Source: Arenicola marina (taxonomy: Eukaryota > Annelida > Polychaeta > Arenicolidae). Taken from it: a stretch of 64,000 bases of DNA. The stretch covers positions 5,783,935 to 5,847,934 of the forward strand of contig OZ025264.1 of the NCBI GenBank assembly GCA_964019135.1. Direction: 5' to 3'. A program made the position numbers and the translations under genes. The notes under the pieces were generated by a model. It saw only the letters and a program-made list of their open reading frames with translations. It was not told where the DNA came from and ran no database searches. Shown in pieces: positions 1,996-53,600 of this stretch (position 1 is the first letter of the stretch; each line of letters opens with the position of its first letter).

Positions 1996-2511
1996 CCTAA
2001 AGAGGCTATGTGTGGCGACGAATTTTGAATTGTTGTCGTAAATTAGTTGTTTAATCTTTGTTGTGATAATTGATAATGATGTCAACATGGTTACTAAGGT
2101 GAATAAAGTTATTGCTGCAAACTAATAATATGAAGTATTCCCTTTTAATGTTACGATACATTCTACTGTTACATAAATGAATTTTGAAAACGTGAAATGG
2201 TCTTAATAGAAGTAATCGATATTGTATCAACAGACCATTATTTGCAAGTGTAGACTGTTAAGTTACAATGGTGTTTGGATTATTGTTGATGTGCGATATA
2301 TTTTATAGATGAACCGTTTACAGTGACGCCCATACACACAAGAATTGGTCATCCAGCAATTATTCACATTCTATACTAATAATTATTTTCTCCCATGTTC
2401 CTTATCATCACACCCCTCCGCCTCTCACATCTCGGTCTCCCTAACCCCTGCCTCATTGCTCCTCCCCCGCCTCCCTGCCACCCCGCCCCCCCCCCCCCCG
2501 CCGGCCCGCAG
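1996..2511 (+). other. intron sequence upstream of mannosidase exon A
   Basis: AT-rich unique sequence followed by a C-rich pyrimidine tract (about 2395-2505) that ends in the AG acceptor at 2510-2511. No other feature is visible. Confidence 0.7.
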
Positions 2512-2688
2512 TTGGTGCTGGGGACCCGGCTCAACCCCTGCTTCACTGGCCCCACCAAGGTTCCGTGCAACCGCATCAACATGAAGCGCGGGAAGCCGAG
2601 CTTTATCGAGATCAGTACGGCCGAGGTGGGCACCATCCAGCTGGAGTTCCGCGACCTGGCGCGCTCCTCGGGTCAGAATCTCTTCGAG
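2512..2688 (+). CDS. MAN1B1: mannosidase exon A (alternative 1)
   Basis: 177 bp, 59 codons, phase 0 at both ends. The acceptor is the AG at 2510-2511 after a long C-tract, and the donor is GTAACC after 2688. It encodes the segment with [10 protein letters not shown] and [11 protein letters not shown]. It is GC-richer than its partner at 3595 and 61% identical to it in protein (36 of 59 residues, counted by eye). Confidence 0.88.
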
Positions 2689-5600
2689 GTAACCGGATAC
2701 CAGTCACCACGCACCACCCCGCGTAGCGCCACCTGGCGAATGCGGCACGAACCCACCCCCAAGCGAATCTCCCGCTCCCCCTCTCCCGCCTACTGCGCAT
2801 GCGCTTGTTTACTAATCTGTACCTCGTGCGTGTGCGTCCTTTATACATTTTTTTTATTGTTTTTTTTTTTCTTCATATATTTTTCTTGTGTGTATTCATT
2901 TAGCATATGTACAAATCACGACGCAGTGTACAGGGTGTTGTTCCATGGATGTGTCCAGCACCGGGAATTCCCTGCTGGTTCTGCGTGGGCAAACCCTCAT
3001 CTACAGCTTTCGTCGATTTTCTATATTCAAGGATTGTTTGACGCACTGTATGTGTTTTTTCTCCGTCGTTTTCGATATTTAGATGAGGATGTTTCATACG
3101 TTTTGTCCATCCTCTAGGTACCGGTTTAGTCGATGTCTTAGCGTCCCCCTAACTGTTGTTACTAATACCTGTGTGCATGCCCCACTCTCTGCCGTCGTCA
3201 ACGTCCGACAGGGGGCGCTTAACGGGAAATGGACATGCAAAAACCAAGATGGCCGACTGAACATATTGAGATAGTTATATATTGATATCTTTCGGTTTTT
3301 AGTTACATCTTCTTAGAGTACTTATGTTATAATTAAGAGTTCACATACTTTGATATATTTTGCATGTACGAACAGAGAACAGAGATCAGAACTACTCTCT
3401 CAGGTGACAGTTACAGTTGGCCATCTTGGTGATCATGTCTCATTGCCTTTAAAAACTGCACTTAAACTAGTTTCAGCGGAACATGCAGAGCGCCACCGGA
3501 GCGGAAAGCTTGGACATATACCATCTAAACTAAAAGACGGAATCAAATACAAAGCCCTGTTTGATGATCTCCCAACCTCCATTTGCATGTACAGTTGGAT
3601 CTTGGGGAGAGGCTGTTTCCTTGTTTCGGCGGGGTGACCAAGATTCCGTGCTATAGAGTCAACCTTAGAACAGGCATGGCTAAGTTTGACGATATCTCCA
3701 CGGCGGAAATCGGAACTATCCAGCTAGAGTTTACCGACTTGGCGCGATCACAAGCGGACGCCAAGTTTGAGGTAGACGACCGGCTACTGTATTAACAAGG
3801 GCAGGGGAGGAAAATCCAGTTCCAGGGGTCCTGCGGGGAGGTGGGAAGGGGGGTGGGGTGCCAATTTGTACGACTTGTCCGTAGGTCTTACGAATTTTGC
3901 TTCGTTTTCTATTGTCTTCCGATTAGCCGGATTATCCTACGATATTTCTTCCTCTAATTTTAATGTTCCCTAAACAGGCATCATAATGCGCCATGTGTGC
4001 ACAACTACTGTATATAGTTTACGAGCCAGATACCTTCGTACCCCCCTGTCATTGGTGACCTCTGATCGTCTTCGTGTTCGATGCTTTTATAACAATTCTG
4101 TGGTTGACATTCGGGGGGTGGGGGTAGGGGTAGAGTGGGTTGGGGGGAGGCGTTGCTTTTGTGCATGGAATGGCCAGGTGTAGTATCAGCCACGTGTCTA
4201 GGTCAGTTGATCCCTGAGAAGGCCTGGCGAAGGCATATGCCATGGACTCCATCTGGCGGTGTCACTGACATCCTCTTGCGCTGTCGTTACCCCTCGGGGG
4301 TTCGATCCCATACCTACTGGCCCACGTTGCCGTACTGCTAAATTCAGACCATTTAGGTTTACCATGTTGTGGCGCTTTGTAAATACTGCTCTTACCTATA
4401 TCATTATTACATTAAGATGCCGTGAAACTAATCGGCTTATTACTTATTAGAAGGGTAAAAATGGATGTGTGTACTCTAGTGTATTATCCTCGAGGGGTTC
4501 ATGGAGTAACGATTTTTATTTGTTATGGCACAGAAAAGTTCTACAGCTGCAATCGTCGCTAACCACTAAACCTGTCTATGCATTCGCTGCTTAGCCCCGT
4601 AGTTTTCAATCTGGGGCATGTTTCATTCCTTCATCCTTCATCGTCTCGGGAGGTTCCTTGGCCCAATTTAGCCTGTATGTGCACAAAAGTGGCCTAAAAC
4701 ACCAACATTCCATTCCATTCCCGTAGTTTTCACTGTTGTGTGCCACCATTATCCCGTTATCTAACCTTTCGGTGTGATCCTAAACATACGCGCAGTCTCT
4801 GTATACACGGTGTTCGGTGAGGTGTATTGATATGAACGCCTGAAATATCTATACCGACTGCACAACATAGCATGCGAAGTGCGCTTAATGTTGGTGGCCT
4901 ATCAGTTAGTAAAATACATTAACCTACGTGTAGCTTAGCATTTCTAGCTTTGAAGTAGTATTAACTATTTTTCTGATGTAAGAATCGCAGAATGTATATG
5001 TGACTAAATAATTCTGACTATATTTTAAGTGTTATCGAAGCACAAGTATTGTATACAAATGTCTTCGCTGGTAATGCTGGTATAACCGCAGTAATAAAAA
5101 CGAAAACTAGTAAATAGTTACTGATGTATAAGTGTAGATAGATGTCATGGTAGTAAAGTGTAGTGTGATAAGGTATTTTCTGCATTGCTGCGCTATACAC
5201 TGTTATACACAATGTAGTCATTTACAAGATATATGGACGGATATTATATCGGATGTTAAATCACTAACCAGTCCTAAGGGGTCTACACAGCGCCATCTTA
5301 TTGAATTACATATTCAAATAGAAAGAAATCCATGAAATATTATGTGACATACCCATCCCTAGGCTATCACAGAAAGCCTTGAAAAGTCACTTGCAACTCT
5401 GCAAGAACTGGTTACAATACCTACTTATTAAATTAGGTTGTGTGACTATCATAATAAATAATTAAAATAGAAAAAAAAAAATCCATGAAATATTACAATC
5501 TAATATACCCATGTCTTGGCCATCGCAGAAAGCCATGGACGACATATCTGACCACCTGCACAAGATGGAGAAGATGGATGGACTCGTGTCCTGCTTCATC

Positions 5601-8376
5601 AACCCACATACGGGCATGTTCCGGATGGCCTCCACCGTCTCGGTCGGCGCAAGCGCAGACAGCTACTACGAGTACCTCATCAAGCAGTGGATACAGACCG
5701 GAAAACAGAAAGACTGGTAAGGTCGCTTTGTCGGTGTTCGCCGAACTTTTTTGTTGGGGTTCATTTCCGGTGTCATATTAACGGTAGAGAAGGAGTATTT
5801 TGTGTGTATTTCCTCTTGCAAAGAGATAATTGTGGACTGACGCCGCCTGTTCAACAAGAAGTTAACTGAATTTTTCTTTTACTATAGCCTGTCATTTATA
5901 GTATTTTAATTGTAAGTGGTCGTATATGTAGTTTTACTATTCCCTGGACGGATTTGTCGTTTTTCGACATCGCGTTCTGTAATACTGAGGGTGGTATTAA
6001 TTTGGCACTGGCGGTCGCAATATCTCATCCTGAGCTACAAACAGAAGCTGAATATCCCATCATGCACCAGTTCAACTTCCGCGTTATTTAAGGTCCTCGA
6101 ATTCAATTGTTGTATTTCGTGGTCGCCGTGTGCCGTATGTGAGCTATGTGTTTTACTCTTAATATGATGGGAGTCCTCACTTGTGCTTAGTTGGCAGCCG
6201 TGCTGGTGCATAAGCCAATGGATAAGCAGCGTATTGTGTAGTAATTTAATTATTTCCATTGATTACGCGGCGTTGCCTGGACAAACCAATGTGAAACTGA
6301 CAGTGACACAGTCGTCGCATGTATGTCCTGTCCTTGGTCCTGACCATTGCTCGGTTCCCATGTCTGACCTGTGTTATGGGCCAGTTTTCGGAACTAAAGT
6401 CTTCCTGGAGGACAACCCATGTCAGACGAGACATGCGTACGGTTCCATAACCTCAAATTATGACGCCCATCCAGAAATGTTATTCCTAAAGTTCCTTCGC
6501 TGGTCGCCAACCTGAAATTGTAACGCCCGACCATTCTAACCAACAGATGTCTCCTTCCTCTTGACATGTCAGGCTGAAGAACGATTATCTGGACGCCGTG
6601 GAGGGCATCTGGAAGCATCTGTACCGCTTCACGGAGCCCGGACACCTGGCCTTCGTGGGATCCTACAATAGCGCCCGCTCGAAGAGCTTCAGGACCGATA
6701 TGGTGAGTGGCCGAGAAACGTTTTGGTGTGGCCTGGAGGGGAAGGGAGGGAGGGGTAAGAGCTTCAGGGCCAGCAAAAGGCTTTGCTATGGCCTGAAGTG
6801 GGGGGGGGGGGGTTAAGGGAGCATAAATTTCGCCTGGAGGGGAAGTGGTGGTGGGGGGATATGAGCTGTAGGGCCGATATTTGTTATGGTCACGATCTAT
6901 GAAATGCATGCAATATTTGTGAAATTGGAATACAGATTTACCCATAGAACAAATCACGCCAAAAATATATCTCGTCATGTGATTGATCTTTGATATAAAC
7001 ATGCTTATGGAATTGGAGTGCAGGGTAACCTATAGCAACTTGATCCAATGATATTACAACATCTAGTCATATATGAATCATGATCTCTGACATCAGAAAT
7101 ATATTATTGACGATGAAGGCCTAAGCTAGTCTACGTACAAGAAAAGGCCAGCATGCAAGTCGCGCCATCGTGTTGCGCGACAGCCAACGATGGTGGAAAT
7201 GTTGTATTTTGATATAGTAACGACTTCTAAGTTAAATATAGTAATAGTTGTTGTATTGTAAGATTTATATGTATGTATTAATATATTAGAAATAATAAAA
7301 AACAAAAGAAAAAAAAAATGATTGAAATGTTTATGTTGATACGCCGTTGCCTAGGAACACTTGGCGTGCTTCCTGCCCGGGACGCTGGCTCTGGGCTACA
7401 TGGCCGGCCTTGGCAACCAGCACCACCTGAAGATGGCGGAGAACCTGACGCGCACGTGCTACGAGATGTACCGCCGCATGCCCACTGGCCTCAGTCCCGA
7501 GGTCGCCCACATGAATATTCAAAACACCGGCACCGAGGATATTAGTACAGGAGTAAGTGTCTGCAAGGAGTTGGCTTCTTCTATTCAACATTATTCCACA
7601 TACTGTTTACATTTGTATTTTTTTCAGTTCGTTTCTATTTGATATTATTCCAGATTTTGTTACCTTGTATGTAAGGTTAGAAATCAAGGTTATTGTAATT
7701 TATTTCCTATTTGAAAGAAAAACTTATAACAGTAAAGCGGGTTCATTACATTTCGGATTAGCTGCAAAGTTGGCCTCTTTAATTGTGTTGAATTCGTATT
7801 TTTAATTAAGGAATAAGATAATTACAATAATAATAAATAAATAAGATCAATTACAAGCAATACAGGTGGGCCTAGTGTAGTAGATTGGTGGTGAAGATTG
7901 CTTTACGTTTCGGGCCATCTTTGTGTACAAAACCGGGCGAATGGGAATTAATATCCCCCACGGTATCCAATTAGACTTTAACATAATTTCGATCTCCTCA
8001 TCATGTCCAATAATTTATCTCCCTCTCTCTTTCGCGTTTACAGTACAGCTCGGTGTTCAACCTGCAGCGGCCGGAGACGGTTGAGAGCATCTTCTACCTG
8101 TACCGCGCCACGGGGGACCCCCAGTACCGGGAGTGGGGGTGGCAGATCTTCCAGGCCTTCGAGAAGCACACGCGGCTGGCGGACGGCGGCTACGCGTCCA
8201 TCGATAGCGTCAAGCGGCCGGACAACCCGGGCCACAGGGACAAGATGGAGACCTTCTACCTGGCCGAGACCCTCAAGTACCTCTACCTCCTCTTCAGCGA
8301 CGACCCCAACTTGATACCGCTCGACAAGTTCGTGATTAACACGGAGGCGCATCCACTGCCGGTGTACACCAGCTAA
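2512..8376 (+). CDS. MAN1B1: ER mannosyl-oligosaccharide alpha-1,2-mannosidase (GH47), C-terminal part
   Basis: Class I alpha-mannosidase of the ER. In the known family it trims Man9GlcNAc2 on glycoproteins to the Man8 B isomer and feeds ER-associated degradation. Exons seen: 2512-2688 or 3595-3771 (alternatives), 5529-5716, 6573-6702, 7355-7552 and 8044-8376. Phases agree throughout (0, 0, 2, 0, 0) and give about 341 C-terminal residues. Family landmarks include the SIQLEF-like TIQLEF segment, ADSYYEYL with the catalytic Asp, [17 protein letters not shown] with the catalytic Glu, [20 protein letters not shown], and the terminal NTEAHPLP, whose Thr binds calcium in characterised enzymes. The match is closer to human MAN1B1 than to Golgi MAN1A/C, for example in SDDPNL and in ending just after HPLP. 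The N-terminal half, including the membrane anchor and the first catalytic Glu, lies off the left edge. Confidence 0.92.
2689..3594 (+). other. intron between the two alternative exons
   Basis: About 0.9 kb. It contains T-rich runs near 2850-2885 and otherwise unremarkable AT-rich sequence. No third exon copy was found. Confidence 0.6.
3595..3771 (+). CDS. MAN1B1: mannosidase exon B (alternative 2)
   Basis: 177 bp, 59 codons, with the same phase and length as exon A. The acceptor is TACAG before 3595 and the donor is GTAGAC after 3771. It encodes [19 protein letters not shown] and [11 protein letters not shown]. Either exon joins in frame to the exon at 5529. Both are intact, so alternative use is more likely than one being a dead copy. 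Inclusion of both would keep the frame but duplicate part of the barrel. Confidence 0.88.
4250..4335 (+). mobile_element. possible tRNA-derived SINE head
   Basis: GGTTCGATCCC at 4299-4309 fits a pol III B box, and TGGCGGTGTCACTG about 45 bp upstream is a weak A box. No cloverleaf was established and no second copy was seen in the window. It could be a chance match. Confidence 0.3.
5329..5400 (+). pseudogene. decayed duplicate of the exon-5529 acceptor region
   Basis: Starting at about 5329, the sequence AAATCCATGAAATATTA, then TACCCAT, then GGCTATCACAGAAAGCC, matches the real acceptor region beginning about 157 bp downstream at 5486 (the same first block, then GGCCATCGCAGAAAGCC). After AAAGCC the copy diverges, and the reading frame drifts from the mannosidase sequence. 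It looks like a short tandem duplication of an intron-exon junction that has decayed. Confidence 0.6.
5529..5716 (+). CDS. MAN1B1: mannosidase exon with catalytic Asp
   Basis: 188 bp, phase 0 in and phase 2 out. It encodes [13 protein letters not shown] through [20 protein letters not shown]; the final Trp codon is split across the GTAAGG donor. The Asp in ASADSYYEY corresponds to the catalytic Asp of human MAN1B1 (D463). Confidence 0.9.
5717..6572 (+). other. intron, no feature seen
   Basis: About 0.86 kb of unremarkable sequence ending in the acceptor TGTCAG at 6567-6572. Confidence 0.6.
6573..6702 (+). CDS. MAN1B1: mannosidase exon, linker and HLAFVGS region
   Basis: 130 bp, phase 2 in and phase 0 out. 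It encodes [16 protein letters not shown], then [16 protein letters not shown] and TDM. It matches the human segment ending in KLTFVGEL and AKM. The donor is GTGAGT. Confidence 0.9.
6703..7354 (+). other. intron, no gene seen
   Basis: It begins with G-rich repeats (about 6735-6865, with variants of GGAGGGGAAG) and continues as AT-rich sequence to the acceptor CCTAG at 7350-7354. Confidence 0.6.
7355..7552 (+). CDS. MAN1B1: mannosidase exon with [10 protein letters not shown]
   Basis: 198 bp, 66 codons, phase 0. It encodes [20 protein letters not shown], then [20 protein letters not shown] and PEVAHMNI. The match to MAN1B1 is close ([25 protein letters not shown]). The donor is GTAAGT after 7552. 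Confidence 0.92.
7553..8043 (+). other. intron, no feature seen
   Basis: About 0.49 kb of AT-rich sequence ending in a pyrimidine tract and TTACAG at 8038-8043. Confidence 0.6.
8044..8376 (+). CDS. MAN1B1: mannosidase terminal exon
   Basis: Encodes 110 residues and a TAA stop. [17 protein letters not shown] carries the third catalytic Glu (E599 in human). [34 protein letters not shown] and [12 protein letters not shown] follow. The last residues line up with the C-terminus of human MAN1B1, so the stop is natural. Confidence 0.95.
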
Positions 8377-9010
8377 CGGCGGACGGCGGGTGGCCTCGTC
8401 ATTGGGATAGAGGGGGGAGAGAGGGAGAGGGGGGGGGGGGCGTAGATTAAAAAAAAAAAATTGTGTGTGCGGGGGGAGGGGGTAGTGTAGGGTGTATGTA
8501 TTTCGGGGTGAGGCGCGGAGCGTGGCGCAGCATTTGTATTTTTATTATTTTTTTGCGGGGGGGGGGGGGGCGTCTTAGTGTAGTGTACTAAGGGAGTAGA
8601 TTGTCTTGGATAGAGAGGTTTAGATAAATGTCGGGGTGGGGTGGTGGGGGGGGGCATCTCATACAGAGATGATGGTGGGTGGGGATGTCAATCTAGTGGC
8701 AGGGGTAGACGCGTGGAGTCGCCTCGGACCTTTATCAAAGAGGGTGACGCTGAAGTTGCTTGAAGCGTCTGTTACTCGTTATGTATCTGTGATTATTGCC
8801 AAGCCAGACTGACAATATTGTGTACATATTGTGTGTCGGGTGGCGTACGTGTGTCGGTGTGCGAGGCTGACGTGCTACATGATCCACTTCCCGTGCTAGG
8901 TACGTACGGCTGTGGGTAACCTTGGTAACCTAAGGGATCATCATTAATATACGCGTCTGTAGTCCTGAGTGGGGCTACCATAGGTCTATTGGTTAATGTA
9001 AACGTCATTA
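8377..9010 (+). other. mannosidase 3' flank
   Basis: Begins with G-rich and A-rich homopolymer tracts (8405-8660). An ATTAAA just before the A-run near 8450 is a weak polyadenylation candidate. Nothing else is recognised before the 21-bp array. Confidence 0.4.
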
Positions 9011-9021
9011 TACCGAAACCA

Positions 9022-10418
9022 CGCGTATCTCCATAGTAATCGCAGGTATCCCCATAGTAATCGCGCGTGTCTCCATAGTAATCGCGCGTATCTCCATAGT
9101 AATCGCGCGTATCTCCATAGTAATCGCAGGTATCCCCATAGTAATCGCGCGTATCTCCATAGTAATCGCGCGTATCTCCAAAGTAACCGCGCGTATCTCC
9201 ATAGTAATCGCGCGTATCTCCATAGTAATCGCAGGTATCCCGATAGTAATCGCAGGAATCCCCATAGTAATCGCGCGTATCTCCATAGTAAACGCGCGTA
9301 TCTCCATAGTAATCGCGCGTACCTCCATAGTAATCGCGCGTACCTCTATAGTAATCGCGCGTATCTCCATAGTAATCGCGCGTACCTCCATAGTAATCGC
9401 GCCTATCTCCATAGTAATCGCGCGTATCCCCATAGTAATCGCGCGTATCTCCATAGTAATCACGCGGATCTCCATAGTAATCGCGCGTATCTCCATAGTA
9501 ATCGCGCGTACCTCCATAGTAATCGCGCAGATCTCCATAGTAATCGCGCGTATCCGCATAGTAATCGCGCGTATCTCCATAGTAATCGCGCGTATCTCCA
9601 TAGTAATCGCGCGTACCTCCATAGTAATCGCGCGTACCTCCATAGTAATCGCGCGTACCTCCATAGTAATCGCGCGTATCCGCATAGTAATCGCGCGTAC
9701 CTCCATAGTAATCGCGCGTACCTCCATAGTAATCGCGCGTACCTCCATAGTAATCGCGCGTACCTCCATAGTAATCGCGCGTACCTCCATAGTAATCGAG
9801 CGGATCTCCATAGTAATCTCGCGTACCTCCATAGTAATCGCGCGTACCTCCATAGTAATCGCGCGTACCTCCATAGTAATCGCGCGTATCCCCATAGTAA
9901 TCGCGCGTACCTCCATAGTAATCACGCGTACCTCCATAGTAATCGCGCGTACCTCCATAGTAATCGCGCGTATCCCCATAGTAATCGCGCGTACCTCCAT
10001 AGTAATCGCGCGTATCTCTATAGTAATCGCGCGTATCTCCATAGTAATCGCGCGTATCTCCATAGTAATCGCGCGTATCTCCATAGTAATCGCGCGTATT
10101 TCCATAATAATCGCGCGTATCTCCATAGTAATCGCGCGTATCTCCATAGTAATCGCGCGTATCTCCATAGTAATCGCGCGTACCTCCATAGTAATCGCGC
10201 GTACCTCCATAGTAATCGCGCGTATCTCCATAGTAATCGCGCGTACCTCCATAGTAATCGCGCGTATCTCCATAGTAATCGCGCGTATCTCCATAGTAAT
10301 CGCGCGTACCTCCATAGTAATCGCGCATACCTCCATAGTAATCGCGCGTATCTCCATAGTAATCGCGCGTATCTCCATAGTAATCGCGCGTACCTCCATA
10401 GTAATCGCGCGTATCCCC
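9022..10418. repeat. 21-bp CpG-rich minisatellite, about 66 copies
   Basis: The core of the unit is CCATAGTAATCGCGCGTA with TCT/CCT/CCC variants. Each unit contains two or three CpGs. As 21 is a multiple of three, two minus-strand frames remain open for 470 and 561 codons (Asp-Thr-Arg-Asp-Tyr-Tyr-Gly and Ala-Ile-Thr-Met-Glu readings), which argues against either being selected as protein. The array sits 0.65 kb downstream of the mannosidase stop. Confidence 0.97.
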
Positions 10419-10847
10419 ATTTACGATCCCGTGGATCTCTATGATAATCGCGCGTATCAACACAACTGCGCATAACAATACATCGCGCGTGTCGCCATAC
10501 TACATTCGCGCATCTTCATTATGAACGCGGGTATCTTCATCATATAGGCATTATCCGTCTCTGAAGTAATGACGAATGAACCGTTTAACTTATAATGTCA
10601 GTAACGTTTGAACTAACGAAAGTAGGGGAAACTGCGCTTGATAAAAAAAAAGGTCTGCAAGGAATATTTCTGTCTATGCTGTGGCAGTTGCGATGGAGAT
10701 TCAAGTATGTCACTTCTTGCGATCAATCCCTTAGAGTGATATCACGTGCATCGAAGAGGCCTAGTGTATATAATGGTGAAGTAGTTAGTGATGACTGGAC
10801 TTCTATATCACCTGGATGGCGCAGTATCAAAGCGATCACAGGTATAG
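10419..10847. other. intergenic, degraded edge of the 21-bp array
   Basis: A few degenerate units (CGCGCGT spaced irregularly) continue to about 10530, then unique sequence follows. No gene is seen. Confidence 0.5.
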
Positions 10848-38600: not shown

Positions 38601-41600
38601 GAGGAAAGAAAAAGATTGAGACCACATTTTTTAGACGCTGGGGTATAACAGCGACAACGACATGGAACGCAAAAGGTGAACAAGAAACCCACGCCAACCA
38701 AAAGAAATGGGCACTGTTCCTTGAAGCAGCGTTCGTTTGGGGAAATCTGTGAGATTAACTGAGTGGTTTCACGCCACAAAGGGTAATACATCACATTGCG
38801 AAGTGTGATTCCCATTGGGAAGTTCCCCGATCGTGCCCAAACTTACAATCAATAATGACCGTGGTGGGTCAAAGGACGGAGTTGTAACCAGGGCTCAGTC
38901 AACATGTGGCTGGATCAAATCCATTCCCGTCTCATAAATAAGCAAGGTTCAGTGCTCAACTTTGAAATAGTTCATTTTGTGAAGTTACCTTGTCAACAAA
39001 TATATTGTCAAATATATTGTCAAGGAAACAAACTTAAGCAGACATGGTCGGGGTGCGCTTGTGAGGGAAGACTGCCACATTAGTGGGTATTATCTCCAGA
39101 GACAGATCACATAGATTTATCTTCATTGGTAAAACAAGTGGTTCTTTAGTATGCGTGATATCTCCAAACCAGGCCGCCGATGCAATTCCGGCAAAATCTT
39201 TAATCAAAATTCCGGAGATAGGAAATTAAATCATGGCACACGAGGGCGAAAGCAACCACTTCCTGACATTTTACCTTTGTAGCTCCTCCTACTATAAATA
39301 AATACCAGGGCGTTTCGTGGCGAGCGCCACCGTTCGGGGGAAAAGCCGACATTACACTGTTAGACGCCTTCGCGGCGTTTTGCGTGCGTTGATCTATGAC
39401 GTCATTTCTAAGCGCCTAATTATACTCCAGAGATGATGATTAGCGATAACACGTGGCGAAAGGCGAGATTTGGGCGAAACCAGCGAGTCCGGGAGGAACC
39501 TACTGGTCGAGAGCACAATCGGCCGTAAATTAGTGGCCGCGCCTGATAGCTTGAGACTCCCGGTCTTAAGGGCGCACTCACTCAATACCAAGCGGGAGGA
39601 GGAGGCGGCCGAGGGTTTCTGGGGTTGGGGGAGTGGGGCAGAGCGGAGAGAGGGGTACATACGGGCATGGCGGCCGGCAGAATGGAAATGGGCGGAGGGG
39701 GGCTGGGGGTGGTCTAGCGTGAGCAAATACTATACTTCTTTACCGGAGTAAGCTTTTACTGCGACAAAAAAAGGTTGTCAATGAATGAAAATAAGCTGAA
39801 TATCCATATAAATGTCCCTCCGACTGGGAACTCTTATTTCATCTTTCACCTTCGGCTTAACCCTAAAAATACCAAGAAATGCTGCGTAGAACATTATTCC
39901 ATTTATCAATCTGTGATATCTCGGCCCAGGCCCGGTGGAGGAAAGACACCAAGCGCCTCGGGCCAAATGGGAAGTTCCCTTTGGCCTAATGTGTAAGGTG
40001 CTCGCTCTGGATGTGAAGGTTGATGGTTCGAATCCCGCCACGGGCGGGGGTAGAACTTTCGGCGTCCATTCAGGCCTGGGACCAGAAATACTACATTTGG
40101 CGCCGTGACCAGGATATGGCCAGCGTCCGGTTTGACGGCGTGGCGCATTGTGGCGGTCACTGCGAGGTCGCAGTCGATTGGGGAAAGGGTGGAGTGTGAT
40201 ATCTCGGCCCAGGCCCGGTGGATGAAAGACACCAAGCGCCTCGGGCCAAATGGGAAGTTCCCTTTGGCCTAATGCGTAAGGTGCTCGCTCTGGATGCGAA
40301 GGTTGATGGTTCGAATACTGCCAGGGGCGGGGGTAGAACTTTCGGCGTCCATTTGGGTCTGGGACCAGAAATACGACAAATCCACTGTCTCGAATCCCAT
40401 CTATAACTCTATTTAATGCCCTTGCCATTTCAAGTTTTATAAATTTTTAATAGTCAATTGGTTTGGAAACTCATCAGTATTGTTGGCATTTCTTCATAAA
40501 ACATGCCGCATTCAGATCTCCCGATGTGTCCAGGCACGGAAAAACGTGTATATATATTAATTTACACAGTATTTATCAAAAGTGTTCTTCCAGAGGCAAT
40601 TCTGTAACTATGCTTTAAACCTTGGAAAATAAAATTACATTAATTTAATATTGAATGAACACGGAACGCCTTTCTGGGAGCTGTGTCTCTCTCGAGTTAG
40701 GTGTGTTAGACGGTGTGGTTGACTCTCCCCCGGGGATCCGGGTAAGTTCCGGGAACATGACTGATGGTCCCTTGGTATGTGTCCCCGTCACGTCTCTCAT
40801 TGTAGCGCCGGCTAATGAAAAACGCACGCACTTCTCCGGTTTATTGTTGAAGCCTGCCTAGTGGGTGGATGGGTGGGCGGGGAGGAGGGGGGGAGCGGGG
40901 GGCCTGCCTCGCGGGTGGGTGGGTGGGCGGGGAGGGGGGGGGGAGTCTGCCTCGCGTGATACAGGAAAACACAAGGAAGGGAAGTGACAATAACACATGC
41001 TGACTTGTCCACCACGGCGCCCACGTACGGTACGGGCACAGGTAGGTACGGGCACCAGCACTGCACTCGGGTGCAAGCACCGAGAAAATATAAACAGTTA
41101 AAAATTACATAGTGCGGTCTACCGTACAGACTGCATGACGAATTTGATCATCGCCGTTTTCTGCCGCGTGTGTTGAATGTTGAATCCGGTTGCGCTATCA
41201 GGCGTGGGGAAGGGGGCAGAAAGCGATGCTTAAATACCCATTGTCTAGACCGGCCTAAAGGAAAGCTTAGATTCACAAGGCCAGGAAGGTCAGCCCATGT
41301 TACCGGCAGATGTCGTTCGTCTTGGTCCTGTTACCGTCCACCAAACCTTATCAGCTTAGCTGGCCACTGGCTTCGTCGTGAGCGTCCTCTCTCTGTCGCT
41401 ATCCGTCATGCAAAACCGGACTACGTCACCCGCTTAAACCGGTCCGGAGTCTATGCTGTGATCCGCAAGCGCCATAAAATGAAATTTTATCGTCGAAGTA
41501 AATGTCAGGCATGAGTTATACGTGAGCTTTGGGTTCGTACTGACATGGACAATGTATTCTGTCATTCAATATGTCTTTTTGTCCCCGGCAAAATGGAATT

Positions 41601-44600
41601 TATTTCGGTGCTTATTTGCATAAATGCAAATATAACATTTGCATAAATGCAGATCACGACGGTTTGGGCCACGCTATATAGTGCAGCTCGTGTGATGGGT
41701 TCGCGGTGTCATAAGACAGTATCATGCGAAAGTTCGGACATCGCTGCCGTTTCTTGTCTTCATCATGGTGACATGGATACGTTGGTTACATTTCCAAAAT
41801 AGTTAACATTACCAAGCCGGGCTATGTTACACTTGTTTGGACCATTTTGAAAAATGGAAAATTGCTTTAAGTGTCTCCGATTCGACTTCTATCCTTCTCG
41901 ATCCTGTCAACGTACATTTCTCACATCGTAATCACTCTCCGGGTCGGATTTTGTTCTGTCGCTATCAAGTGAAGACACGAAAACAAAAAGAAGAGTGAGT
42001 AAATGAGAGAGAAAAAAACAAAAAGGATTCCAAACACTTAAGGTGTAACAACGAAAGAAAGAGTAGGTGAGAGAGTATGCGAACCATCCTGCTTCCTATA
42101 TGTAAATGTTGCCACATGGGAACGAGGGCAGAAGCAGGGCACATGGCTAGAGATTGCCCAGAGCCCATGGGGGTAAATGAGAAAGGACTCGGTCGTTGAC
42201 AGCTAATTCACCTTGTCGTGACATGCTAAATGACCATCTTAACCACGTGTCTCATCCTCACCTCCCTCCCCCGTCCCCTCCTTCCCCTCCCCTCCCCTCT
42301 CATCTCTCGTCTCAACTCCCACCTACCCGCCCCTCCCACCTCCCGTCTCCTAACTACCCGCTCTCCCAACACCCACACACTCTCGCACTCCCATCATATA
42401 ACTCACACCAAACCCATATCCCATGTAGGCCATAAGAGTCACCCCCACCCCACCCCCACCTTCACCTCTACCCCCCTGCCCCCCACCGCACCCCTCACCT
42501 CCCACCGTTTCTGACCCCTTCCTGGCCGTCTAATGACCGTCCCTTAATCTCTTTGAGCGGTCCAAGCCCTCCCCAGAGAGGGCTGCTGGGGCGAGTCGGT
42601 GGATGGGTGGGCGGTGTGGGGGTGGAGGGCCAACAGATCAGCCACCCTCGTGGCCTGCCGGTCAAAGAGACAGCTAGGCGGGTCAGGGAGACAACCAACG
42701 GGGGTCAGGCGGCTGCCATGGCGACCGGAAAGTGTATCACCGCCCCCCCCCCTTTACCCCGTTCGCCACCTCTGGAGTGTATAGAACGGTCCAGTGATAT
42801 TATAACACAAACTGAACCCCGGAAGAACATTATATGACTGAAGGGTGCGTGGTGAATGGGCAACGACTGAAGCCCAGTTTCGTATTTTCGCTGTTTCGCG
42901 AAAATCTGACTTAGCCTACATCCTGCATGTAATTTGTCTTAAAAAGTACGCGAAATATGATGTATAATTATTTTGGTTGCAATACATAGTATATATGTAT
43001 TTGGTTATTTACAACACTTAATTTAAAAAAAAAGGTTATTTGCCTTACGTATATTTGTTTATTAGCAATACATTTATCGGAATATAGCGACCATTTTCAC
43101 AAAGACTAAATACATTATAATCTTTCGAATCGTTCGAACATTGATGCAAGTCGAATTTCGTTTGCTACTTTTTTGGCTTCGGTATCTAAAATTGTTATTC
43201 CAGAGTTCTACTGGTATCATATGAACTGAGTTGGTGTGACAGATGTCTGGATCCCAAAGAGGTAACATCACTGTCACTTGATGCTATCAATGCACAATTG
43301 ACCAGGAAAGATATTGCGACTTCCATTTTTATTTTGGTATCCAGGTCTGGACAAGCAATATGGTATATGAACTACTTTGACGCGTTAATTGCCCAAAGTG
43401 TTGCACTCTCCATTTGTGAACCCCCTTCCGCCACCACCCGAAGACAAAACATATAGATTTCCATGACTTTGTGTACAGTCATATAAATATGCGCTTGTGT
43501 ATAGGCCCTATATGTATATTCCAGAGCCCCCCCCCGCCCCCCCACCAACATGTTTTTTTATTTTGTGCAATGAATGGCGTTTAGTTCTTAAAAAATCCGA
43601 TTCCTCATACGTTCTTTCATAAAGTACCCTTTCATGCGTGATTTGTGTTATTTTATTATATTTTATTATTTTATTGTTGTGATTATTTGAGAAGATCTTG
43701 CATGATGGCAATCCATTTCAGGAATAAAAGAAAGAACTAAATAAAATTGACTAGTTAAATTATTGATGGTAATCTATAAATATTTTATCGCCATGATCTG
43801 ACGGGAATCTGCTTTCTTAGAAACCTTCGAAGGCACAAACCATTACTTACCTAGCGCACTTTTGTCTGCGTGCTCCGGCGGAAGCCAGAAGACGAGCAAG
43901 GTGAGAAAAGACAGGAAGATGGCTGGCATGGTGAGAATGTACGTGGAAAACATCATCTTCCGCTTCAAGTGCAAGGTCAAGGACACGATGGCGTACTGCG
44001 GGCTGCCCTCTGGCGGCTGAATCATTCTCTCGGCAGTACTGCGGGGAGATACAACACTCGGTGACACCGCGGAACCACCTCTCCGGTCTATGGAGAGGAT
44101 GAATGGGTTTATAGAATTCGCCACGTCCACTTCCTGCGGACTTTAATTGCATTTCCGGCCATGTATTTCCTGTTTCCGGTGGGTCAGAGGTAATATGAGT
44201 CAGGGGGATTATTCTGCTCAAATATAAAAAGCGTGGAGGGTCGCACTGACCGGGAAACAGGAATAGATTTTGCACAATGCCATATAATAGAGAAATGTGT
44301 ATAACCCAAAAGAAGGATTCAGTTACAAGGTCGGCTTGGTTAATATCAGGGCGGTAGATAGTTAGTCGTCGTGGACTGAAAATACGGCTATATTCTGCTT
44401 TCGAACTAATTATTATTTAGGGTTGTTTTTCAACCCACCGTAAACGTTAAGGTAATTAGATTAATCAAATATTGATGAACAAATCAAAGGCATTAAAAAA
44501 ATTAGTTCAAGACATTTCGGTAAATAAATGACGAACCTGTTAGCGATCTCCCACTCGCTTGCCTCCTTGTAGACCGACTGGAAGGTACTCAGGTCCAGGC

Positions 44601-47600
44601 CCCCGGGGAAAGCTAACTGGAGGTCGATCTCGTTAACGGAATGTGTCCAGGAGCCGAACCAGAGGTGACACGTCTGATTGTCAAAAGGGAAGTTGCGCAC
44701 ATCTATTGCGCAGCTGCTCTGGAATACTCGGTGGGGGAACCAGAGGACCGTGCCATCTGAATGGACCACGGCACGAACTTTGCGCTCTGCGTCATCGGTA
44801 CTGGCCCTGTGGACAAGAACACGTCTGAGTGGGTTGCGAGAACGTGTGAGGGGCCAATCAGTGGAAGTCTTCCAATCCTTGCCCAGAATGGGGCATGTTT
44901 GCTACCTCTTATTTCAAGGCCGATTCCCGCAGGCAATACCGTAAAGTAGAAGGTCCAGCAAATGTTCTTTTTCCGTGCCTAGAATGATTCGCTTCCTTCA
45001 TTTCAATGCCGAATTCCGTATCACGTTTAGTCCAAGGCCAAGCAATTATTCACTTCATTTCAGTGCCAATTGAGGCATACCGTATTGTTCTATGGTACCC
45101 GCTACTGGCCCAGCGATTCAAAGTCACCATTGGGTGCAGGGCCGAATGTGGTATTTGTCACAGATGGATGATTCGGTCACAAGATATTTCCATTATCCAT
45201 ATGCGGTTTCTACAGAACTTGGAACCGAAATAAAAATCCTGATCATTCCCCATATATAAGTAATCATGTCGTAGGGAAAAGTTGCACCATAACACATTTG
45301 ACAAAGGCATAATATATATATTTAGTGACATATATATATATATACAGCAATAACGTCATCTTTTATATAAATCCATAGATTCGTATGAACGAACGGAAGG
45401 TTTTCTGTAGATTCAGAAATATCTGTAGATTGGTAATGCGAGTCATTCAGCTCGCCAGTACATTCCAAGGACAGTGTTGAGGACGCTTTGGTTTAACAGA
45501 ACAGTGCATTGTACCGTATGGCCTCAGGCCCATATTACATTCAATAGTACATCATTATGAACATACACATACACAGACAATGTAGTAGAAACACATTTCT
45601 ATGTCGCATGGCTATGCTGTAGCTTAAGCAGGAGAATGGAATCAATAACGATTTATTCGAGTCTTCAGATTTTACGAATCTATCGAACCTCGTTCTGTCT
45701 CTGTGACATATATGCGCAACAGTTACAAGGAAAACAACATTCCATAGTCATTTGTTAATACCAAGTTACCACTCACTCACATCAAGATGCCTCAGCGGTT
45801 TAGCTCAGCCCATGATATGTGACCTTACTAATATGGTTTATTTCAGGAGCTTAAAGGCCTTTGCGCAGACTGTTGCTTGCATGACGTTATCCTGGCTTGA
45901 AATTGGTTTAGATCACGATTCAAATTTGAAATAAAAACATTTGAGCGAGGATATCCTTCTATAGTGCGCAACGGACTCAATCGTAATGGACCCCATCCTA
46001 ATGGACTCTATCCTAATAAACTTCATCCTAATGGACTCCATCCTAATGGACTCCATCCTAATGGACTCCATCCTAATGGACACCACCCTAATGAACTCCA
46101 CCCTAATGAACTCCACCCTAATGAACTCCATCCTAGTGGACTCCATCCTAATGGACTCCATCCTAGTGGACTCCATCCTAATGGACTCCATCCTAATGGA
46201 CACCACCCTAATGGACTCCACCCTAATGGACTCCATCCTAGTGGACTCCATCCTAATGGACTCCACCCTAATGGACTCCATCCTAATGGACTCTATCCTA
46301 ATGGACTCCATCCTAATGGACTCCATCCTAATGGACTCCATCCTAATGGACTCCATCCTAATGGACTCCATCCTAACGGACTCCATCCTAATGGACTCCA
46401 TCCTAATGGACTCAATCCCAATGGACTCCATCCTAATGGACTCCACCCTAGTGGACTCCCATTAGGTGGACTCTACCCTAATGGACTCCATCCTGATGGA
46501 CTCCACCCTAGTGGGCTCCACCCTAATGGACTCCATCCTAATGGTCTCCACCCTAGTGGACTCCCATTAGGCGGACTCCACCCTAATGGACTCCATCCTG
46601 ATGGACTCCACCCTAGTGGGCTCCACCCTAATTGACTCCATCCTAATGGACTCCACCCTAGTGGGCTCCACCCTAACGGACTCCATCCTAATGGACTCCA
46701 CCCTAATGGACCCCATCCTAATGGACTCCACCCTAGTGGACTCCCATTAAGTGGACTCCATCCTAACGGACTCCACCCTAGTAAACTCCCATTAGGTGGA
46801 CTCCACCCTAATGGACTCCATCCTGATGGACTCCACCCTAGTGGGCTCCACCCTAATGGACTCTATCCTAATGGACTCCACCCTAGTGGACTCCCATTAG
46901 GTGAACTACATCCTAATGGACTCCATCCTAATGGACTCCATCCTAATGGACTCCCATTAGGTGGAGTCCATCCTAATTGACTTCATTCTAATGGACTCCA
47001 CCCTAGTGGACTCCCATTAGGCGGACTCCACCCTAATGGACTCCATCCTAATGGACTCCACCCTGGCGGACTCCCATTAGGTGGACTCCATCCTAATGGA
47101 CTCCATCCTAATGGACTCCCATGAGGTGGACTCCATCCTATTGGACTCCATCCAAATGGACTCCCATTAGGTGGACTCCATTCTAATGGACTTCATCCTA
47201 ATGGACTCCACCATAACAGACTCCACCCTAATGGGCTCCATCCTAATGGACTCCATCCTAATGGACTCCCATTATGGGGACTCCACCCTAATGGACTCCA
47301 CCATAATGGACTCCACGCTAGTGGACTCCCATTAGGTGGACTCCATACTAATGGACTCCACCCTAGTGGACTCCTATTAGGTGGACTCCATCCTGATGGA
47401 CTCCACCATAATGGACTCCATCCTAATGGACTTCATCCTAATGAACTCCATCCTAATGGACTCCACGCTAGTGGACTCCCATTAGGTGGACTCCATCCTA
47501 ATGGACTCCATCCTAATGGACTCCACGCTAGTGGACTCCCATTAGGTGGACTCCACCCTAATGGACTCCATCCTAATGGACTCCACGCTAGTGGACTCCC

Positions 47601-50600
47601 ATTAGGTGGACTTCATACTAATGGACTCCACCCTAGTGGACTCCCATTAGGTGGACTCCATCCTAATGGACTCCATCCTAATGGACTCCATCCTAATGGA
47701 CTCCACCCTGATGGACTCCACCATAATGGACTCCACCCTAATGGACTCCACCCTAATGGACTCTATCCTATTGGACTCAAGTCTGTTTTGTGGACCCCGC
47801 ACAGGGGCAGATCTATTGGGGGAGTGGGGGTAGGGGGGTCGCATCTCCCCTTCCACCTGGGAACTTGAGCATACACTGTAATAGTAGAGTTCTCCAGCGA
47901 CCTACATCGCAGAGTGACATTGTATAGAAGCAAGCCCCGCAATAATAAAAGCTAGATACCCACCTCTATTTGTGTGGACCTCATCCTTTTTCGGTAGACC
48001 TTCGGTCGTAAAATGATCGTATAATTCACTTCGGACCTTCGTTTTGTTACAATTCCTGGGTGCTATGGTCTATGGACGAGGTACCTACGTGTTATACAGC
48101 ATGATATCCGGCACCCAGATCCTCATGTAGTCGATTTTAACCTGCGATACTCCGTCATATTGGTCCGGGTCCCACGTCAAGTACTCGTCTCTCCAACGCT
48201 GCAATCAATTATTAACGATCAATTTTTATGTGAGGTGACATCGTAGTGATAATGAAGGTTAATTGGCCTTTGCGAGGGGATGAAATAAGGTTTATTGGTG
48301 TACTTATTTGTTCAACAGTGTTTCAATAAATGCCTCAACCCAAGTTCACTTCAAAATTAACCGATATCAGCCAAATATTTCGTCTCAACCTTGACATTCA
48401 GTGAAAGATGCTTTCCGCCTTTCAATGGACCAGGGTATTGTGCCAATATAGCGATCGATTCCCGATGTGTCACAATACTTGATCCTAACTTTTTTGTATT
48501 TATCGCATAAGCTATAGGTATATGTAAAGCGGGAATTTCTATTTAAGTGACTGCTATAGACGAAAGAGGTCGGACGTATTCCAGCGCGAGTTATAAAGTA
48601 AATCCACATAAAGATTATTCTGGAGACCAGTTTGGGGCGCCCACTGAAAGGTCGGCGCCATTTTTTTCTCATTCCGGTTCCTGTTAGTGTGGGACATTCG
48701 TGAGGACGAGACCAACATGTGGGAAGCAATAGAATCGCGTGATAAAGGTTGTACACCCACATGTCTGACCTTCACGTAGTACACCAACGTACTGGTTAAT
48801 TCCGCCCCTGGCATATTGTCATGTCCTTACTTGTATTTGTCCTATTTTATTGCGACATAAAAAAATTGAATACATGCATTAATTATACACTACAATACTA
48901 TAAAAAATAAGATCTGCAAATGCTTGTAAGATCTGCAAGATCTGCAAATGCTTGTAAGATCTGCAAGATCTGCAATGCTTGTAAGATCTGCAAGATCTGC
49001 AAATGCCAAAGACGAGTAAAACTTGTCGGCAATGGGGGAGGGGGCGGGGGCCCAACTTATTTTTATTAGTGAAGTGAGCCGTCTGTGAATTGAGGGCATA
49101 GTTCAAACACCGTTTCACCCTTTCCAAAATTATGTTTAGAAGGAAAGATAACTATGATTGCACCACACCCTTGAACACGCCGCCGCACATCTGCAAGCCG
49201 TGGTGATTGATGAATTGACACGTCAGCACCGGAAACATCATTATCAGTCTAGACAAAAGTTGGTATTGACGGGGAAGTATGTTGCGGAGACGCCCATTTC
49301 TGTCTGTAACTCTCTTAATGCCAGCGCCACGGGTGCAGCAGCTGCCGTGGCGGCGTCAAATTAATTAAACCATTATCGAAATGTCGTCACCCCTCAGGCG
49401 AACCGCATCCTGTTTTCGACAGATGTTCCCCGTATTAGCCATTTGTGATTTCTTCAACAGCCTTGATTGAACGGCAAATGGGTAAAACATGGTCAGGATT
49501 TGTCAGCTGCAGCCGACGCCACGGCACGTGATTACTCTATCAACTGTTTTGCTCCGCTTGGGTTTTGTGACTGTAATCGTTACAAACGTGTTGACTATTC
49601 GCTTCCGCCAGATAATTATTTAAGTATCTGCCACATCTGTTACGATGCACATGCGGAGTGGGGTTGGTGGGGGCTCAATATACTGCTCATCCTTCTATGG
49701 GTGGGTGGGGGAGGGGGGGGGGGGGGAGGGTGCAAGGTGCAAGGGATCGCGAAGAATAAATCTGTTTATGCCCAAGTCACGATGAATTAAAAAGGATAAC
49801 TCCCAGTATACATAGAACGGGCGGACACATGATATAAATTAGCTATTTCCCGATTCACGGTTATTTAAAGGTAAAATTCCCAGTGCACGATTAATGAAAA
49901 TGATTGGTCACGGCGGTCGACTAATACCCCATTCCCAGTTCACGAAGAATTATTTGCCTCAATCCTAGTTTACGGTGAAATGAAAACTCCATTCCCGAGA
50001 AATGGAAATATCCATTGCCCCCCCCCCTTCCTATCGTGGCTTTCAATATAAGAGCAATTGTCCTATTGTCTGCTTTGCAAAGAAGGTGATTTGTGATTTG
50101 AGATAAGCAGGAAAACGAGAAAGGTCAAGGTAGACAGGAGCCATGTCTGCGGGAGTAACCCCGGCTTTACTCTTTGCGAAGAAAAACATGGGATTTTTAT
50201 CTAGCGCTAACATATACATAGGTAGGAATGGAAAGACACACCGGGCCCTAAGCTGGCCTTGCAAGCCACCTTGTCAAGGACTAATAGGTCACTCAGTCAC
50301 CATGCCCACTACCCACCGCCCCACAACCCTCTCTATCCTGTCCACCCACCCCGCCCCACAACCCCCTCCACCCTGTCCACCGACACCGCCCCACAACCCC
50401 CACCACCCTGTCCACCCACCCCGCCCCACAACCCTCTCCATCCTGTCCACCCACCCCGCCCCACAACCCTCTCCATCCTGTCCACCGACCCCGCCCCACA
50501 ACCCCCACCACCCTGTCCACCCGCCCCGCCCCACAACCCCCTGCATAGTGTCCACCCACCCCGCCCCACAACCCCCTCCAACCTGTCCACTCACCCCGCC

Positions 50601-53600
50601 CCACAATCCCTTCCACCCTGTCCACCCGCCCCGCCCCACAACCCTCTCCACCCTGTCCACCCACCCTGCCCCACAACCCTCTCCATCCTGTCCACCCACC
50701 CCGCCCTACAACCCCCTCCACCCTGTCCACTCACCCCGCCCCACAACCCCCTCCACCCTGTCTACCCGCCCCGCCCCACAACCCCCTGCATAGTGTCCAC
50801 CCACCCCGCCCCACAACCCCCTGCATCATATCCACCCACCCCGCCCCACAACCCCCTCCACCCTGTCCACCCGCCCCGCCCCACAACCCCCTGCATACTG
50901 TCCACCCACCTCGCCCCACAACCCCCTGCATCATATCCACCCACCCCGCCCCACAACCCTCTCCATCCTGTCCACTCACCCCGCCCCACAACCCCCTCCA
51001 TCCTGTCTACCAACCCTGCCCCACAACTCTCTCCACCCTGTCCACCCACCCCGCCCCACAACTCTCTCCACCCTGCCCACCCATCCCGCCCCACAACCCC
51101 CTCCACCCTGTACACCCACCCCGCCCCGCAACCCCCTCCACCCTGTCCACCCATCCCGCCCCACAACCCTTCCACCCTGTCCACCCACCCGCCCCACAAC
51201 CCCCTCCGTCCTGTCACCCCACCCTGCCCCACAACCCCCTCCACCCTGTCCACCCATCCCGCCCCAAAACCTTCTTTATCTTGTCCACCCACCCCGCCCT
51301 ACAACCCCCTCCATCCTATCCATCCACCCTGCCTCAAAACCCCCTCCATCCTGTCCACCCACCCCGCACCACAACCCCCTCCATCCTGTCCGCCCACCCC
51401 GCCTCACAACCCCCTCCACCCTGTCCACCCACCCCGCACCACACCCAACTCCATCCTGTCCGCCCACCCCGCCCCACAACCCTCTCCATCCTGTCCACCG
51501 ACCCCGCCCCACAACCCCCACCACCCTGTCCACCCGCCCCCGCCCCACAACCCCCACCACCATGTCCACCCGCCCCCGCCCCACAACCTCCTGCATAGTG
51601 TCCACCCACCCCGCCCCACAACCCCCTCCAACCTGTCCACTCACCCCGCCCCACAATCCCCTCCACCCTGTCCACCCACCCCGCCCCACAACCCCCCTCC
51701 ACCCTGTCCACCCACCCTGCCCCACAACCCTCTCCATCCTGTCCACCCACCCCGCCTACAACCCCCTCCACCCTGTCCACTCACCCCGCCCCACAACCCC
51801 CTCCACCCTGTCCACCCGCCCCGCCCCACAAACCCCCTGCATAGTGTCCACCCACCCCGCCCCACAACCCCCTGCATCATATCCATCCACCCCGCCCCAC
51901 AACCCCCTCCACCCTGTCCACCCGCCCCGCCCCACAACCCCCTGCATACTGTCCACCCACCTCGTCCCACAACCCCCTGCATCATATCCACCCACCCCGC
52001 CCCACAACCCTCTCCATCCTGTCCACCCACCCCGCTCCACAACCCCCTGCATACTGTCCACCCACCCCGCCCCACAACCCCCTGCATCATATCCACCCAC
52101 CCCGCCCCACAACCCCCTCCATCCTGTCCACCAACCCTGCCCCCCAACTATCTCCACCCTGTCCACCCACCCCCGCCCCACAACTCTCTCCACCCTGTCC
52201 ACCCACCCCGCCCCACAACTCTCTCCACCCTGTCCACCCATCCTGCCCCACAACCCCCTCCACCCTGTACACCCACCCCGCCCCGCAACCCCCTCCATCC
52301 TGTTCACCCACCCTGCCCCACAACCCCCTCCACCCTGTCCACCCACCCCGCACCACAACCCCCTCCATCCTGTCCGCCCACCCCGCCTCACAACCCCCTC
52401 CACCCTGTCCACCCACCCCGCACCACACCCAACTCCATCCTGTCCGCCCACCCCGCCCCACAACCCTCTCCATCCTGTCCACCGACCCCGCCCCACAACC
52501 CCCACCACCCTGTCCACCCGCCCCGCCCCACAACCCCCACCACCATGTCCACCCGCCCCGCCCCACAACCTCCTGCATAGTGTCCACCCACCCCGCCCCA
52601 CAACCCCCTCCAACCTGTCCACTCACCCCGCCCCACAATCCCTTCCACCCTGTCCACCCGCCCCGCCCCACAACCCCCTCCACCCTGTCCACCCACCCTG
52701 CCCCACAACCCTCTCCATCCTGTCCACCCACCCCGCCCTACAACCCCCTCCACCCTGTCCACTCACCCCGCCCCACAACCCCCTCCACCCTGTCCACCCG
52801 CCCCGCCCCACAACCCCCTGCATAGTGTCCACCCACCCCGCCCCACAACCCCCTGCATCATATCCACCCACCCCGCCCCACAACCCCCTCCACCCTGTCC
52901 ACCCGCCCCGCCCCACAACCCCCTGCATACTGTCCACCCACCTCGTCCCACAACCCCCTGCATCATATCCACCCACCACGCCCCACAACCCTCTCCATCC
53001 TGTCCACCCACCCCGCTCCACAACCCCCTGCATACTGTCCACCCACCCCGCCCCACAACCCCTGCATCATATCCACCCACCCCGCTCCACAACCCCCTCC
53101 ATCCTGTCCACCACCCTGCCCCCCAACTATCTCCACCCTGTCCACCCACCCCGCCCCACAACTCTCTCCACCCTGTCCACCCACCCCGCCCCACAACTCT
53201 CTCCACCCTGTCACCCATCCTGCCCCACAACCCCCTCCACCCTGTACACCTACCCCGCCCCGCAACCCCCTCCATCCTGTTCACCCACCCTGCCCACCCA
53301 CCCCGCCCCACAACCCCCGCCGTCCTGTCCACCCACCCCGCCCCACAACCCCCTCAACCCTGTCCACCCACCCCACCCCACAACCCCCTCCACCCTGTCC
53401 ACCCGCCCCGCCCCACAAACCCCTGCATACTGTCCACCCACCCCGCCCCACAACCCTCTGCATCATATCCACCCACCCCGACCCACAACCCCCTCCACCC
53501 TGTCCACCCACCCCGCCCCACAACCCCCTGCATCATATCCACCCACCCCGCCCCACAACCCCCTCCATCCTGTCCACCAACCCTGCCCCCCAACTATCTC

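Follow-up and report, generated by a model that had tools for sequence, protein, structure and literature searches.

The window analyzed here, a stretch of 64,000 nucleotides, carries on its forward strand two neighbouring and homologous exons that match the same segment of a GH47 domain. Exon A (2512..2688, + strand) and exon B (3595..3771, + strand) are both 177 nt long, have phase 0-0, encode 59 residues each and are separated by an intron of 906 nt. Their peptides align without gaps and share 36 of 59 residues (61%), and the underlying DNA, likewise gap-free, is identical at 105 of 177 bases. These results reproduce an earlier note on this DNA, which had reported two exons of 177 bp and identical phase lying 0.9 kb apart, with open frames encoding 59 residues at 61% identity. 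Both exons have borders of the form cag/TTGG...GAG/gta, with an AG acceptor and a GT donor, and the same reading frame is open in both and is the sole open frame matching GH47; the third frame of A is also open and has no family match. Taken alone, the exon peptides match PF01532 with 34.5 bits (A) and 35.0 bits (B). The pair thus combines adjacency, identical phase and splice-compatible borders with homology and equal length (177 nt), as is characteristic of mutually exclusive exons. The internal status of A and B was judged from their borders and phase, as the upstream exons lie outside the window. No credible extra copy of the exon besides A and B was found in the 64-kb window, the next best matches having E values of 1.5-2.0.

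Downstream of the pair lies a single set of four shared exons on the + strand: C (5529..5716, 188 nt), which contains ADSYYEYL at the position of human D463, D (6573..6702), E (7355..7552), and F (8044..8376), the last coding exon, which contains RPETVES, KMETF and NTEAHPL and carries the stop codon. The combinations A-C-D-E-F and B-C-D-E-F are each in frame and each encode 341 residues up to the same single stop. The window begins 2.5 kb upstream of A, and the N-terminal membrane anchor and the first half of the domain lie outside it. Using the N-terminal half of human MAN1B1 as a probe, we found no credible upstream GH47 exon within the window, the best match in this region (E 0.82) being located inside a minisatellite on the minus strand. 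The boundary between the B-C intron and exon C is itself duplicated in tandem (5295-5411 and 5448-5568), covering the last part of the intron and the first part of the exon, with a start-to-start distance of about 153 nt and about 75% likeness that fades within the first ~40 bases of exon C; as a result, a decoy acceptor precedes AAAGCCTTG at about 5373. Elsewhere, the minus strand contains parts of a ligand-gated ion-channel gene (43847-61295), with Neur_chan_LBD matches at 44461-44901 (7.8e-21) and 60951-61295 (5.9e-05, below the curated cut-off) and long minisatellites between them. Judged by its gene content, the DNA probably comes from an animal. Tandem repeats mask 24,104 of the 64,000 bases, including 1-2000, about 9000-10440, 50.1-55.5 kb and 56.4-60 kb (extents by eye).

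The A form scores 373.4 bits against PF01532, and the top solved protein for both isoforms is human ER mannosidase I (MAN1B1, GH47; 380.7 and 383.4 bits), which is 52% identical over the 341 residues aligned. Golgi mannosidase IA scores well lower, at 218.9 and 214.8 bits for the two isoforms. The residues at the positions of D463, E599, E663, T688 and E397 are kept, whereas the gene differs from its human relative by the duplicated exon, by two additional cysteines (C10 and C19 of the exon peptide), by a four-residue gap in the exon region, and by a Ser at the position of Arg461, which is encoded by the shared exon C (5529-5716). Arg461 of the human enzyme is a residue tied to branch specificity. 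The identification of the gene as an ER mannosidase in the earlier note is sound as regards GH47 membership and the nearest solved protein, but with Ser instead of Arg at position 461 the label itself rests on overall similarity. The exon region corresponds to chain positions 196-257 of entry 1x9d, presumably residues 357-418 of human MAN1B1, based on an offset of 161 that places E, S and R at the expected E397, S409 and R461. Both A and B have Glu at the position of E397 and Ala at that of S409. MAN1B1 changes found in disease include E397K and S409P (PMC8260486), such that the exon region would include two disease positions. A fold model of the exon peptide built from the two sequences was poor (mean pLDDT of 55.9) and did not place the ends of the exon within helices.

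To set the A/B match against chance, we collected every open AG..GT segment of 90-300 nt on both strands of the TRF-masked window and compared all pairs of the same length and phase within 10 kb (14,692 on the + strand and 16,059 on the - strand, 30,751 in total). At a threshold of at least 35% amino-acid identity, 10 rows were obtained on the + strand and 8 on the - strand. Three of these 18 rows are the A/B pair, whole and as two nested cuts, and the remaining 15 derive from one recent DNA repeat at ~39.9-40.4 kb. The A/B match is thus not a product of chance, since nothing besides A/B and this repeat reached 35%. The repeat itself (39930-40360) is a tandem array with a 283-nt step that is open on both strands.

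Comparison with the human protein provides an indication of the age of the pair. Over the exon stretch, identity to the human sequence is about 43% for either exon, against 61% between A and B. Among 58 aligned columns, all three sequences agree in 19, A and B alone agree in 16, A and human in 4, B and human in 8, and all differ in 11. The 16 columns shared by A and B only include two cysteines, at positions 10 and 19, and both peptides have the same four-residue gap against human. This closeness, together with the shared cysteines and gap, points to an old tandem duplicate, and the duplication is most likely an event of this organism's lineage that followed its split from the human line, with the caveat that gene conversion could also draw copies together. 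The 72 nucleotide differences between A and B fall 21, 16 and 35 times on the first, second and third codon positions, respectively, leaving 17 codons identical, 19 changed synonymously and 23 non-synonymously. By the NG86 method, dN is 0.38 and dS is about 5, which is saturated. When the same 72 differences were placed at random, none of 20,000 trials reached 36 of 59 residues (the maximum was 30) and only 12% were free of stops. The flanks of the exons are alike at 16 of 60 and 18 of 60 nt, and because they are no longer alike, the similarity of the exons is not merely a sign of youth. With the protein preserved despite saturation at synonymous sites, neither copy has the look of a dead exon. 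As far as substitution patterns can tell, A and B are a true, old and constrained tandem pair, both copies of which have been kept as protein under selection. Third-position GC is 0.90 in A, 0.61 in B and 0.86 in the shared exons. Searching viral_contigs with the A form for a relative yielded no pattern match, and a 3-row alignment gave pattern matches in 95 viral_contigs and 34 genome_contigs stretches, none of which is a relative; both collections are viral, bacterial and archaeal, hold no animal genomes and say nothing on conservation.

The splice sites of both exons had been described as good, which is right as far as the AG and GT borders are concerned but generous for the donors. These read gtaacc in A and gtagac in B, and both lack the G at +5 that C, D and E carry. 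By donor score, the B donor is the lowest-scoring of the five, with a score reached by 19% of the window's 3,922 GT sites, compared to 5.6% for the A donor and 5.2% for the E donor. As the A donor is about as strong as that of E, the idea that weak donors mark regulated exons holds only in part. Inclusion of both exons, or of neither, keeps the reading frame, so that exclusion cannot be imposed by degrading shifted transcripts and nothing in the code forces it; frame shift followed by NMD is thereby discarded as a cause. Such a device is optional and not required for mutually exclusive exons according to the human atlas (PMC5740500). Incompatibility between U2 and U12 sites is also discarded, given that gtaacc and gtagac are not U12-type donors. 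Steric hindrance in a short intron is dismissed as well: the A-B intron measures 906 nt and an AG lies only 40 nt before the B acceptor, which together make a branch point near the A donor unlikely. For most clusters devoid of these devices, the human atlas presumes control by regulators or RNA structure (PMC5740500).

Features that could serve such a role surround the pair. Two C-rich tracts flank exon A, one including its polypyrimidine tract (2455..2509, + strand) and the other downstream of its donor (2751..2805, + strand), and both are candidate pairing partners. A G-rich tract just downstream of the B donor (3798..3860, + strand) may act as their common partner or as a G-run enhancer, with seven GGG runs falling within the first 100 nt of the B-C intron, and a second G-rich tract in the same intron (4111..4151, + strand) is the strongest predicted partner of both C-rich tracts. 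We surveyed 4,324 hand-masked 100-nt windows using thresholds set post hoc, namely at least six CCC runs for C-rich and at least seven GGG runs for G-rich windows. C-rich windows form four clusters, two of which are at exon A, and G-rich windows form eight, with one at exon B, one after exon D and one after the stop codon. For the A-side tracts, pairing with the B-C intron is predicted at -65.6 and -55.0 kcal/mol, while the lowest of 60 dinucleotide shuffles gave -41.3 and -42.3 kcal/mol, yet pairing with the unrelated D-E intron is almost as strong (-55.5 and -46.0 kcal/mol). Moreover, with two G tracts, both C:G pairings can form nested at the same time, and pairings able to coexist in this way would not select one exon. 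Competitive pairing between C and G tracts could nonetheless provide a lead, as a hypothesis drawn from folding predictions. The A-B intron also contains a long imperfect hairpin 150 nt before exon B (3233..3443, + strand), with a folding energy of -67.4 kcal/mol (z -5.17; none of 200 shuffles as stable) and arms of 17 nt that are 94% complementary (3243-3259 and 3414-3430). No second copy of it was found in the 64-kb window, and it is possibly a mobile element.

Altogether, we consider that A and B are probably one-of-two alternative exons of an ER-mannosidase-I-like (GH47) gene that originated by tandem duplication, a reading based on sequence to which we assign a probability of about 0.75. 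One internal exon would have been duplicated in tandem to yield A and B, and the mRNA would carry either ...-A-C-D-E-F or ...-B-C-D-E-F. We infer single inclusion from the fact that these 59 residues of one GH47 domain are needed once. The proposal of mutually exclusive exons made in the earlier note thus gains from the existence of a duplicated and maintained pair, for which one-of-two use is the most economical account, but loses some of its force as strict exclusion because the frame is kept both ways. The candidate criteria published for the human atlas are vicinity, similarity, same frame and similar length, and A and B display all four; exons within a folded domain are typical of its validated cases. 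Nevertheless, validation succeeded for only 1,399 of 6,541 human candidates, and the atlas itself cautions that exclusivity is lacking in many pairs of similar adjacent exons (PMC5740500).

B may be an exon of infrequent use, considering that it has the weakest donor of the five and a third-position GC below that of A and the shared exons. One exon alone would then appear in normal transcripts and the other, probably B, would be a retained and rarely spliced duplicate, a scenario that we find unlikely because an unused copy should have lost what B still has: 36 of 59 residues kept at saturated synonymous change, the exact length, its splice borders, and a GH47 score matching that of A. Since double inclusion preserves the frame, A and B could instead behave as two cassette exons that are both included in at least some transcripts, producing a protein with a 59-residue repeat. 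This is very unlikely in view of the solved relatives aligned, in which the segment occurs once per GH47 domain, and of the published argument that a folded domain is unlikely to accommodate two similar exons in tandem (PMC5740500). Most improbable in our estimation is that A stems from a partly lost upstream tandem copy of the gene and B from the intact gene, or the reverse, as separate transcription units. The window starts only 2.5 kb upstream of A, which leaves room for such a copy, and the MAN1B1 N-terminal-half probe gave no credible upstream exon in the window; on the other hand, there is a single C-F set, and A is under protein constraint and has a usable donor.

If A and B are alternatives as we propose, both enzyme forms would keep the residue matching human E397, which makes modulation of activity likelier than its loss. 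The forms would differ mainly in the early segment, in the loop after it (KRGKPSFIE in A and RTGMAKFDD in B) and at the end of the long helix, and these differences may alter stability, interactions or substrate fit rather than switch activity on or off. Exclusion might be enforced by one of the remaining candidates, long-range RNA pairing between C and G tracts or regulators binding these tracts. We regard as unlikely the more specific proposal that ER mannosidase I has an old, maintained either/or switch in its catalytic domain and that competition between C-tract:G-tract pairings decides which exon is taken. Should the pair be used, the enzyme that initiates mannose trimming in glycoprotein quality control would be made by one gene in two forms differing in the catalytic domain, and such natural variants, provided that they keep the enzyme folded, would reveal which parts of the segment tolerate change.

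Arrangements of this kind are well known, but we found no report of one in this enzyme. Our literature search for alternative exons in a GH47 enzyme, carried out mostly by title, returned none, which does not establish their absence from print. Neither "mannosidase" nor "MAN1" occurs in the main text of the human atlas (PMC5740500), and databases record alternatively spliced human transcripts for MAN1B1, among other genes, with the kind left unstated (PMC3045797). Like the mutually exclusive pairs created by tandem exon duplication in human (PMC5740500) and in fly and human (PMC6071210), A and B are homologous neighbours of equal length and frame within one folded domain. They differ from those pairs in being predicted from sequence, in the hypothetical nature of the C-rich/G-rich pairing, and in having flanking introns without similarity beyond chance (60 nt compared per side). 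Compared to docking-site and selector switches of the Dscam type (PMC6071210), the partners here are low-complexity C and G runs for which an unrelated intron is almost as good a match, whereas the layout is similar, with two tracts near one exon that may compete for a common downstream partner.
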